DNA of 37,495 bases from Ignavibacteria bacterium (GTDB lineage: Bacteria > Bacteroidota > Ignavibacteria > Tepidaquicellales > OLB5). Shown in pieces: positions 19,597 to 22,330 of this stretch. The stretch lies in the NCBI GenBank assembly GCA_020852705.1, contig JADZAP010000049.1, positions 1 through 37,495 on the forward strand, given 5' to 3'. The position numbers and the translations under genes were made by a program. Each line of letters starts with the position of its first letter. The stretch's first letter is position 1. Under the pieces are notes generated by a model. It was not told the origin of the DNA, made no database searches, and saw only the letters and a list, made by a program, of their open reading frames with translations.

Positions 19597-20703
19597 TCAT
19601 TTTCCAAATAACTTAGATAAAAAGTTTGTTTTCATTTTTGCCGAAGCTTTTTTAACAGTGGCTGAATTATCGCTTTGCAAAAGCTTAATTATGTTTTTTG
19701 TAAGTCCCTTATTTTGCGTTAATGCTAACCTTACTTTTTCATCTTTATCTTTAGCTAATTTATATTGAAGTTCTTCATCCATATTTTTGCCAAATTCAGC
19801 TGTTAACAGTTTTATTTCAATTGGGTGAGAATCAAATGAAAGTTTTACATTGTTTAAAAAATTCTTTTGAATTTTTTCCATATCCATATTGAACTCTACT
19901 TGCTTATTGTTTTCTGCACTTAAAAATTCTTTAAGCCACCAAATTAATGCGTCATTTACAAAAGGTCTTTCAAAGTACTCTCTAATAAAATTATCAAAAT
20001 GTTTGCTGTATATTTTCAATGCTGTTACACTTAAAAAGTATTCAATTGTGTTTATAATATCCTTTTCATCTATATCAAGTATTAAAAACAGAGGTTGAAC
20101 TTCTTTATTTGGATGAAGTTTAGTCCAGATAGAATCCGGCAGGTAATTATCATTATCGCAATAATTACAATTAATTGTCCTTTTGGTTTTTGAGCTCAGC
20201 TCTAAACCAGCTCCGCATGTCATACATTTAAATACTAACATTGAATCTTTTTCTGTATTACGTTCACCTGAATCTATACCATTAGCATCATTAAGAACGC
20301 CAACAGCTTTTGGATGAAATTCCAGAAGTAAATTATCGGCTGCTCTTACGGGCATTATATGCCCGCACTTTGTACATTTAAAAACATTTCCTGAGCTTAT
20401 TGCCTGCACTGCTGAATCTTCGTCAATTGTAACAAAACATTCTTCGCAATACGGCTGCATTGATGAATAAGAAAGTTTATATGCTCCGCTTCCGCCTAAC
20501 TGTTCAATGCTTCCTGAAAGAAAACCGGTCAAGTATTTATCTTTATGCATAATACCAAAAAGGTTATTATTTATAACAGATAATACATTAATTTTTTTCC
20601 CGCAATTCTGGCAGGTATCAAAGTCAGTAATTCCCGATACTGTAATGTAATTGTTGCATCCATCACAAACTATCTGAAGCTGAAAGATTGAAGTTTTATA
20701 CAT
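19597..20703 (-). CDS. Protein with three zinc ribbons and a helical repeat tail
   Basis: A 368-residue soluble protein of unknown function. Three four-Cys zinc-ribbon pairs are visible: C13/C16 with C31/C34, C86/C89 with C110/C113, and C160/C163 with C179/C182. Residues 190-300 are an alpha-helical region with Trp and Phe. Residues 305-360 resemble a leucine-rich-repeat-variant or HEAT-type unit (DKDEKVRLALTQNKGLTKNIIKLL, then a second shorter one), and the C-terminus is basic. Zinc ribbons of this kind bind nucleic acid or protein partners. No membrane segment or signal peptide is seen. It stands alone, with long non-coding stretches on both sides. Confidence 0.82.
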   Translation of the reverse strand: MYKTSIFQLQIVCDGCNNYITVSGITDFDTCQNCGKKINVLSVINNNLFGIMHKDKYLTGFLSGSIEQLGGSGAYKLSYSSMQPYCEECFVTIDEDSAVQAISSGNVFKCTKCGHIMPVRAADNLLLEFHPKAVGVLNDANGIDSGERNTEKDSMLVFKCMTCGAGLELSSKTKRTINCNYCDNDNYLPDSIWTKLHPNKEVQPLFLILDIDEKDIINTIEYFLSVTALKIYSKHFDNFIREYFERPFVNDALIWWLKEFLSAENNKQVEFNMDMEKIQKNFLNNVKLSFDSHPIEIKLLTAEFGKNMDEELQYKLAKDKDEKVRLALTQNKGLTKNIIKLLQSDNSATVKKASAKMKTNFLSKLFGK

Positions 20704-20943
20704 TTTTCAAACTTTTATTTTATTTTATTTATTGTGATATATCCCAAAACTGGTTTAAATTTATTTACTTTACAATGAATTTTAAATATCCCTTAACAAA
20801 TTTTTTCAAGTAATTGTAATAGTATAGTATTTTTCACAAAATTTTTCTAAAATACAGGTATAAAAATGGTGAAAATGGGGTAAAATATGGGAAAATTAAG
20901 ACCGTAATATATTTCAACTTCTAAAATACAGAAAATTTAACTT

Positions 20944-20974
20944 TTGATTTAGCAGAGTTTTATTATTATGTTTG
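20944..20974 (+). promoter_or_regulatory. Strong Bacteroidota-type promoter
   Basis: TTG at 20944-20946, a 20-nt spacer, and TATGTTTG at 20967-20974 match the TTG-N19-21-TAnnTTTG consensus. Transcription should start near 20979, almost 200 bp before the lipoprotein start codon, so a long structured leader or a small RNA is expected. Confidence 0.65.
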
Positions 20975-20982
20975 TTTTCAAA

Positions 20983-21107
20983 GGCTATACTTGATGCTCA
21001 ATTTCAATAAGAAAATATTACATCCCCTGAAGATTTCCATAACACTTCCTGGAGCATCGTATAGCCGACGATTTCAGAAATTATGGCTTCAGGGGATTAG
21101 ATTTTTT
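20983..21107 (+). ncRNA. Candidate structured leader, attenuator or small RNA
   Basis: Two long helices share this segment. Helix 1 pairs GGCTATAC (20983-20990) and GATGCTC (20993-20999) with GAGCATC (21052-21058) and GTATAGCC (21059-21066): 15 bp with a 2-nt bulge. Helix 2 pairs ATCCCCTGAAG (21022-21032) and CCATAA (21037-21042) with TTATGG (21081-21086) and CTTCAGGGGAT (21087-21097): 17 bp with a 4-nt bulge, capped by ATCGT/ACGAT and followed by six T (21102-21107). The helices interlock, so they are either alternatives (antiterminator versus terminator) or a pseudoknot. The start of helix 1 coincides with the predicted 5' end. The rest of the gap, 20704-20943, is AT-rich with nothing I can name. 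Confidence 0.6.
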
Positions 21108-21170
21108 ATACTATAATTTATAATTTTTATTTGTATTATTATATTAATAATTTAGAAAAGGAAACAAAAA

Positions 21171-21548
21171 ATGAAAAAAACATTATTACTTTTTTTACCG
21201 GTTTTTATCATTACAATCGCAATAATTTCCTGCGGTGATAACACAACCGGTACTGGCTTGGGTTCAGTAACATTTACTATGGGTACACAGCAGGGACCCA
21301 ATGGCGGAACCCAGTTCACTTGGTCACCTTCTAAAAGCGTAAAAGTAACTAAACTTATACTTGGTACCACAGGATTTTCTGATACAATTACAGATAACTC
21401 AGGTACAGTATATACAGGCAATCAAACATGGGCTTACCCCAATGAATATACAGGTGTTACAACCGGTCAGCAGTGGACATTTAACTTCACCGGAACAGAT
21501 TCAAGTAATCAGGCATATACATCAACAGCAAATTTAACAATTCCATAA
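21171..21548 (+). CDS. Small lipoprotein
   Basis: A 125-residue lipoprotein. The signal peptide ends in I-I-S-C with lipidation at C21; the residues after it (GDN) do not fix the destination membrane. The mature part is Thr/Gly/Ser-rich with alternating hydrophobic residues typical of a single immunoglobulin-like beta-sandwich (residues 35-125), with Trp residues in WSPSKSVKV, TWAYPNEY and QWTFNFTG. No enzyme motif. AAAAGGAAA precedes the ATG by about 5 nt. It follows the structured leader and is 38 bp upstream of the beta-barrel gene, so the two are probably co-transcribed and may work together in the outer membrane. Confidence 0.85.
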   Translation: MKKTLLLFLPVFIITIAIISCGDNTTGTGLGSVTFTMGTQQGPNGGTQFTWSPSKSVKVTKLILGTTGFSDTITDNSGTVYTGNQTWAYPNEYTGVTTGQQWTFNFTGTDSSNQAYTSTANLTIP

Positions 21549-21586: not shown

Positions 21587-22210
21587 ATGAAATCAAAATT
21601 TCTTTATCTTTTCATAGCAGCTGCATTATTGTTTTCAGCATCTAATTCAATGTCACAGGTTTCATTTGCGTTTGGTCCAGAGTTCGGTATAAATCTGTCA
21701 AATGTAAGTGTAAATCCTACAGCTACAACAGACTCTAGAACAGGATTTATTATTGGCGGCATTGCAGATATTAATATAGGAAAGGTTATGGGGGTAACTT
21801 CCGGTTTAAGGTATGTAATGAAAGGTTATACTACTTCGCAGGGTAATACTACATTCAAAGTAAAACTCAATTATATTGAAATTCCGGCATTACTAAAAGC
21901 TAGGTTTCCATTAACTGAAGTAAAGCCTTATCTTTTAGGCGGACCGGTTTTAGGAATAAATCTTGCTGCAAACCAAGAGTCAAACAATGGTCAGCAATCA
22001 AGTAATACTGATGTAAGTAATTCAATTGAATCAATTGATTTTAGTTTACTATTTGGTGGCGGATTAGATTTTAAAATCGCTACCAAAACTTCATTATTTG
22101 TACAGTTTGGTTATCAATTAGGACTTTCAAATGTTCTTAAAGGTCAAACAACCACAACTGCAAAAAACTATGGTATTCAAATTACAGCAGGTGCTAAATT
22201 TAATATGTAA
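21587..22210 (+). CDS. Outer-membrane beta-barrel protein (PorT/OMP_b-brl_2 type)
   Basis: A 207-residue exported protein. The signal peptide is followed by Q24 as likely first mature residue. The rest is a series of amphipathic strands of alternating hydrophobic and polar residues with Gly-rich turns (FAFGPEFGINLS, YLLGGPVLGINLA, SLLFGGGLDFKI, FVQFGYQLGLS) ending in GAKFNM. This is the pattern of the 8-stranded outer-membrane barrel family common in Bacteroidota, which includes porins and PorT-like proteins of unknown role. A good Shine-Dalgarno sequence (AAAGGAG) lies 7 nt before the ATG. It is the second gene behind the 20944 promoter and is followed by two hairpins. Confidence 0.88.
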   Translation: MKSKFLYLFIAAALLFSASNSMSQVSFAFGPEFGINLSNVSVNPTATTDSRTGFIIGGIADINIGKVMGVTSGLRYVMKGYTTSQGNTTFKVKLNYIEIPALLKARFPLTEVKPYLLGGPVLGINLAANQESNNGQQSSNTDVSNSIESIDFSLLFGGGLDFKIATKTSLFVQFGYQLGLSNVLKGQTTTTAKNYGIQITAGAKFNM

Positions 22211-22247: not shown

Positions 22248-22280
22248 TATAACCCCGGTATTTGTGGTGCCGGGGTTATG
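22248..22280 (+). terminator. GC-rich hairpin after the beta-barrel gene
   Basis: ATAACCCCGG (22249-22258) and CCGGGGTTAT (22270-22279) form a 10-bp stem with an 11-nt loop, 38 nt past the stop. The T-tract after it is poor, so it may protect the 3' end or act with the next hairpin. Confidence 0.65.
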
Positions 22281-22301: not shown

Positions 22302-22330
22302 AAAAAAGCAGGTCAATTGACCTGCTTTTT
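22302..22330. terminator. Bidirectional terminator, 28-bp perfect palindrome
   Basis: AAAAAGCAGGTCAA/TTGACCTGCTTTTT (22303-22330) gives a GC-containing stem with A-run before and T-run after on both strands. It separates the beta-barrel gene (+) from the DUF3098-like gene (-), whose stop is at 22359. Confidence 0.9.

Follow-up and report, generated by a model that had tools for sequence, protein, structure and literature searches.

Introduction

ANTAR targets consist of two sequential hairpins. In attenuation of the BglG/LicT/SacY type, a RAT hairpin is set against a terminator and a protein controls the outcome (PMC1489936, PMC9981650). In Bacteroides, capsule operons carry early-terminating 5' leaders that are served by dedicated paralogous factors, the UpxY proteins (PMC7819879). 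Two interleaved stems within a leader are a feature of H-type pseudoknot riboswitches (preQ1 and others).

Here we describe a structured leader from an Ignavibacteria genome (assembly GCA_020852705.1, contig JADZAP010000049.1). The window is the whole stretch of DNA that was analysed, 37,495 nucleotides in length. As in BglG/LicT/SacY attenuation, the leader lies between a promoter and a gene, has competing hairpins and has a candidate regulator next door. However, the helices of those systems overlap side by side, whereas here they are interleaved in the order 1-2-1'-2', and the candidate regulator is TPR-like, lacks a PRD or CAT match and is encoded divergently. The UpxY case is similar in that multi-copy surface loci in the wider phylum each have a leader and a paralogous factor (PMC7819879). 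UpxY proteins are NusG-like and encoded inside their own operons, whereas the paralogs here are divergent and without a NusG-like match, and their leaders are compact interleaved helices. The interleaving recalls H-type pseudoknot riboswitches, but the stems are 9-23 bp long, the classes diverge in sequence, and there is neither a common loop core nor an Rfam match. Two-hairpin leaders are shared with ANTAR antiterminator RNAs, which are protein-controlled (PMC8934654, PMC3369936); the element in the window differs in that it interleaves, and sequential leaders are found at other paralogs (L162, L176). Structured regulatory leaders are a known kind of RNA, among which the element forms a new family; it is unusual in that its geometry is kept while its sequence is replaced and in that it is coupled to a large family of paralogs.

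The leader and its promoter

The features of the locus are as follows.

19597 to 20703, minus strand: P0003, zinc-ribbon protein gene; the homolog in relatives lies beyond the divergent paralog
20919 to 20926, plus strand: TTCTAAAA block 5' of the promoter, kept in class A leaders (alignment of 11 loci)
20943 to 20974, plus strand: promoter, with the -33 TTTG at 20943-20946, N20, and the -7 TATGTTTG at 20967-20974; kept in 11 of 11 loci
20983 to 20999, plus strand: helix 1, 5' strand, with a 2-nt bulge at 20991-20992
21022 to 21032, plus strand: helix 2a, 5' strand, partner 21087-21097
21037 to 21042, plus strand: helix 2b, 5' strand CCAUAA, partner 21081-21086
21049 to 21077, plus strand: apical hairpins within helix 2, exclusive with helix 1
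21049-21053 with 21073-21077, plus strand: hairpin 2c, CUGGA/UUCAG
21052 to 21066, plus strand: helix 1, 3' strand, common to the apical hairpins
21056-21060 with 21068-21072, plus strand: hairpin 2d, (A)UCGU-AUAGCC(G)-ACGA(U), loop AUAGCCG at 21061-21067
21081 to 21097, plus strand: helices 2b and 2a, 3' strands
21098 to 21107, plus strand: UAGA and six U, a terminator-like end; the run is partly degenerate in relatives
21156 to 21164, plus strand: purine-rich AAAAGGAAA 5' of the start codon, a possible ribosome site outside the helices
21171 to 21548, plus strand: P0001, small lipoprotein gene, first after the leader
21587 to 22210, plus strand: P0002, outer-membrane beta-barrel gene (PF13568)

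The initial annotation had named the promoter, both helices, their 1-2-1'-2' order and the U-tract from the sequence of the window, and all of its coordinates were confirmed to the base. The promoter is of the Bacteroidota type (-33 TTTG / -7 TAnnTTTG), for which transcript starts 4-5 nt after the -7 box are typical in Flavobacterium (PMC7366714; PMC6847099). With the same spacing, the 5' end is predicted at 20979-20980. Helix 1 pairs GGCUAUAC(uu)GAUGCUC with GAGCAUCGUAUAGCC (15 bp), and helix 2 pairs AUCCCCUGAAG(auuu)CCAUAA with UUAUGG-CUUCAGGGGAU (11+6 bp). Between the stem of helix 2 and the six T (21102-21107) lie four bases, UAGA.

Two further observations concern the neighbouring DNA. 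P0003, a locus neighbour kept in the genus, has several N-terminal CxxC zinc-ribbon motifs and no confident family. Behind the beta-barrel gene, close together on the plus strand, are two strong hairpins that resemble intrinsic terminators (22248-22280 and 22303-22330).

Competing folds

Folding in excess of shuffled sequence, together with the consensus promoter, bears out the proposal of a structured leader behind a real-looking promoter. The segment 20979-21066 alone folds into helix 1 (-21.3 kcal/mol, z -4.2, 0/200 shuffles), and 21022-21097 folds into helix 2 (-29.2 kcal/mol, z -4.9, 0/200 shuffles). Across 20979-21107 (z -3.7) the minimum-energy nested fold is the helix 2 rod, and helix 1 is dominant in partial transcripts that end at 21066 or 21080. 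The score of the interleaved pair in the promoter-anchored window was reached by 0/100 shuffles. Judged by pairing order, with 1-2-1'-2' and both helices supported, the leader would be classed as an H-type pseudoknot. It also has the mutually exclusive competing structure of an attenuator, with modest hairpin statistics.

The two helices had been described as alternatives or a pseudoknot. Helix 1 and the base of helix 2 are not strict alternatives, because they have no bases in common. The notion of competition holds for another part of the structure: bases 21052-21066, which serve as the 3' strand of helix 1, can pair within helix 2 as well, in its apical hairpins 2c and 2d. From the pairing, the real competition is predicted to be that between this strand's pairing in helix 1 and the apical hairpins (21049-21060 with 21068-21077). 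Pseudoknots with such long stems may be hard to form.

Conservation in the genus

Nucleotide searches and a covariance model identified the element, hereafter class A, in 11 of the 13 genomes of the genus, that of the window included; Ignavibacteria MAGs such as OLB5, UBA2360 and BA6 are among the genomes with it. Relatives have one copy, at most two; a second, diverged copy occurs in G007 (L034). The pattern TCCCC-N-GGGGRTT recovered no further class A copies across the genus, and also listed a class E palindrome at G008:C1:549537. One covariance-model match (L033, G017) is inside a coding gene and was taken as chance. A dispersed DNA repeat (REP/MITE), which the initial annotation had named among the findings that would speak against a leader, was rejected, as the segment has a single match in its own genome and relatives have one or two copies of class A. 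When GTDB genomes and viral contigs were scanned with exact patterns, the only matches besides Ignavibacteria were five chance ones, in Saprospiraceae, Flavobacterium, Thalassotalea and two viral contigs, all without the structure.

In the alignment of 11 loci, the conserved elements are the TTCTAAAA block, the promoter, both helices and GGGGGATTA. Cells are paired across both helices in 95.3% of cases in these 11 sequences, versus 39-42% when the alignment is slid, and the covariation score is above 499 of 500 shuffles and above all slid controls. Compensatory base changes are thus present in relatives, as had been expected of a functional RNA, and the architecture of the leader is well supported. 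Because helix 1 is nearly invariant within class A, the best evidence for it comes from the diverged L034, where GGCUAU/AUAGCC is swapped for GGCUAA/UUAGCC and two inner pairs change from G-C to A-U. In the shared strand of L034, the C of UCGU becomes U; the partner in helix 1 changes from G to A, and so does the partner in hairpin 2d (UUGU/ACAA). This triple-matched change supports two exclusive pairings of one strand.

We also scored the hairpin around the core of the helix 1 3' strand, class by class (the other classes are described below), by shuffling its flanks. Classes C, H, E and G gave p values of 0.012, 0.025, 0.03 and 0.044, respectively, and class A gave about 0.06, whereas B and D gave 0.3 or more; the full span was 0.01-0.4. 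As a set these values are suggestive; they are not decisive for the window alone.

Class A leaders always precede genes for exported proteins: a lipoprotein plus beta-barrel, or T9SS cargo with BNR or SBBP repeats. The lipoprotein/beta-barrel pair follows in nine genomes; in two (G005, G009) it is replaced by a BNR-repeat gene with a T9SS sorting domain. A leader remnant was noted before a BNR-type gene at L104 (G002:C1, divergent flank of 802526-803725), where the promoter and AGGCTATATGAT, the 5' strand of class A helix 1, are kept and the rest of the leader is missing.

Leaders of unrelated sequence with the same geometry

The initial annotation missed the wider context, namely that leaders of other classes with the same geometry stand beside genes of a protein family with many paralogs. 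On their divergent side, these genes are flanked by the same type of promoter, and a subset has leaders of unrelated sequence in 1-2-1'-2' order. An unanchored scan for interleaved helices was too noisy, and therefore promoter-anchored windows were compared with 100 dinucleotide shuffles. For about 27 distinct leaders, the 1-2-1'-2' score was reached by 0/100 shuffles; they fall into eight sequence classes (A-H) and two families. Leaders within a class are related to one another, so that only the classes count as independent cases. Classes F and G are the least certain. The pairings and named leaders are listed below (5' strand / 3' strand, helix 1 first).

Class B: helix 1 GGCGAAAnCGGUAU / AURACGUUUUCGCC; helix 2 AUUCCUGUCAGCU / AGCUGCAGGAAU
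Class C: CUAAUGGCGUU / AACGCCAUUAG; ACCCCGCAUUACUUC / GAAGUAUGCGGGGU
Class D: UUCGGCUAUG / CAUAGCCGAA; UCCGCCAAAAUCC / GGAUUUGGCGGA
Classes E, F, G and H: one named leader each (L161, L175, L111 and L199, respectively)

A GGCUAU core is common to classes A and D. Two leaders from another family (L197, L198) belong to class C, with helix 2 rewritten as ACCUUCCGCAGCUUC / GAAGUAUGCGGAAGGU. The promoter-anchored scan found no such leader in the flanks of many distant paralogs, which serve as internal negatives.

A second type of leader linked to the TPR-like protein family has two sequential hairpins (1-1'-2-2'). These were seen at L162, L133, L176, L139, L164, L180 and L184; one example has GGUCGUCC/GGACGACC followed by a GCGCU hairpin.

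The interleaved leaders are constant in place, with the promoter on one side and a gene for an exported protein on the other. The distance from the -7 box to helix 1 is 0-10 nt except in L175, where it is 17 nt. In 28 of the 29 tabulated leaders, a start codon lies 10-82 nt past helix 2, and the encoded protein has a signal peptide to judge by eye from its N-terminus; the remaining record hits a contig end. BNR or SBBP repeats together with a T9SS type A sorting domain occur in several of the downstream proteins. In the 12 nt past helix 2, T makes up 49% across classes, versus 32% in the surrounding flank. The U-tract is weak in some class D leaders and broken in class A relatives L003, L005 and L010.

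These distances bear on the free small RNA of about 125 nt that had been proposed for the window. Such an RNA, with a promoter and terminator of its own, would act in trans or titrate a protein, and the downstream gene would be a mere neighbour. It would account for the promoter, the compact structure and the U-tract, for an RNA that is kept while the gene behind it changes from the lipoprotein pair to a BNR-T9SS gene, and for its persistence in the window after the divergent gene was lost. The option is less supported because the start codon of an exported protein follows so closely in 28/29 cases. This spacing holds in several classes and leaves little room for a second promoter; the downstream genes are of one functional kind, and the U-tract is degenerate in some members. 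We consider such an RNA unlikely.

Of the proposed terminator, a hairpin and six T are present, but they are four bases apart, and termination is less supported because the U-tract is degenerate in some relatives. The imperfect U-tracts would suit a leader that works without termination, where the fold protects the mRNA or a regulator acts on translation or decay. The start of helix 1, a few nt at most from the predicted 5' end, and the strong conservation of both helix strands (mean column identity 78% in A1) are also in keeping with such a role. The ribosome-binding region, however, is outside the helices, and the T-enrichment right after helix 2 across classes points to termination, so that a purely protein-binding or stabilizing leader seems improbable to us.

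In the window, Rfam 15 gave 0 matches at the gathering threshold, in agreement with the view that this is no known riboswitch class; at E<=10, the best below-threshold matches in 20900-21250 had E values of at least 1.3. The lack of an Rfam family, the leader position and the switch-like alternative pairing would fit a metabolite-binding riboswitch of an undescribed class. Yet conservation is in the helices, the classes have no unpaired core in common, sequences differ fully between classes of the same geometry, as would not be expected of a ligand pocket, and the downstream genes are not metabolic. We therefore give the metabolite reading hardly any credence.

The divergent protein family

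In 9 of the 11 class A genomes, a gene of the paralog family and the leader stand back to back; the G007 copies are at contig edges, and the window is without the gene. The proteins are about 480-500 aa long, and there are 15 to about 50 per genome in the genus; the two-contig genome G008 has 53 family matches. Other genera of the order have the family as well, and outside the order it is rare. Searches of Pfam and NCBIfam gave no confident assignment and no CAT or PRD domain match, and neither a NusG-like match nor an ANTAR domain was seen. A toxin-antitoxin or defence role was considered and set aside, as there was no PADLOC match. We found no papers on this protein family or on such leaders in the literature.

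A structure model of one such protein (mean pLDDT 76.5) consists of helices throughout; its N-terminal domain is predicted well, and its C-terminal half is TPR-like. Comparison with PDB folds returned generic TPR superhelices and solenoids only (E > 0.006). Matches of this model to IFIT5 and designed PPR proteins may be taken as a hint of RNA binding, not as evidence.

Linkage between leader and protein is also seen in the phylogeny. Mapped on a tree with 39 paralogs, classes A to D require 4 changes, whereas none of 300 shuffles required fewer than 7; for the mere presence of a leader the figures are 4 versus at least 9. All rows with classes A-D are inside one supported protein clade. Searching with the class D DNA pattern alone gave six loci, 6/6 beside a paralog. 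The exceptions to the match between class and clade are L099 and L100, in which a class A leader is found in the class B protein clade.

These two loci suggest exchange between cassettes, as might be seen if the palindromes were DNA elements, bound by the divergent protein or used in recombination, and the RNA fold a by-product. That several other paralog loci have short GTGCAC palindromes instead would also be in line with a role at the DNA level. Against this, orientation and promoter distance are fixed, the U-rich end is on one side, G-U pairs are tolerated, compensatory changes occur, and the alternative pairing is possible only for a strand. A DNA element is thus very unlikely.

Some features of the paralog loci were noted by inspection. 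At L148-L150, L170, L179, L182 and L183 (G008), paralogs are back to back with small genes whose proteins start with 'ISKGYRLKPETHKMI...' and look ribbon-helix-helix-like by eye. At several of these small-gene loci, GTGCAC palindromes lie just past the promoter, as might be seen under autoregulation. Four to five family members lie close together at G000:C55:16670-32292 and at G008:C1:427355-435491, and one of those in G000 is a pseudogene.

Eight or more relatives have a P0003 homolog, then the paralog, the leader and the lipoprotein gene, in this order. In the window, P0003 is directly next to the leader with no paralog between, from which we deduce that the paralog was deleted. The same genome has an intact-looking class B leader beside a paralog with four internal stops. 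Because orphan and pseudogene-linked leaders both look intact, an adjacent cognate protein is not strictly needed. Such leaders either work without one, are served by another paralog or were recently orphaned.

A model for the leader

We favour an attenuator-like cis-acting leader because of its position, geometry, U-rich end and partial-transcript folds; that the segment is the 5' leader of an exported-protein operon with a folding switch of this type is, in our estimate, an evenly balanced proposition. It is probably an on/off switch for surface-protein genes. Termination and the direction of control are what we infer. RNA polymerase would start at about 20979, and helix 1 would form as the first ~88 nt emerge. 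With the next ~30 nt, helix 2 would become possible, either as a pseudoknot beside helix 1 or as a single long rod whose hairpins 2c and 2d would reclaim the 3' strand from helix 1. Together with the U-rich tract, this rod would end transcription; helix 1, by delaying the rod, would favour read-through into the genes for the lipoprotein and the beta-barrel.

This balance would most likely be tipped by a protein sensor. Foremost among the candidates is the TPR-like protein encoded back to back with most leaders; we infer this role from linkage only. In its extended form, the proposal is that dozens of TPR-like paralogs, each with its own leader RNA, bind it and decide between read-through and termination of surface-protein genes, as a lineage-specific system. 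We offer this tentatively, as a possibility that falls well short of the expected outcome.

Implications

Regulatory leaders are usually recognised by conserved sequence, whereas here the geometry is conserved and the sequence replaced wholesale. Homology searches miss the set because of this replacement, and the class in the window is accordingly without an Rfam match. If the model is true, these leaders would be naturally diversified, possibly mutually exclusive RNA switches, and a first role would be assigned to a family of up to ~50 paralogs per genome that lacks a Pfam model. The model would also explain how a large set of exported proteins is controlled in Ignavibacteria. With one paralog per leader, such a system would let these bacteria address the members of a large repertoire of T9SS cargo and lipoproteins one by one.
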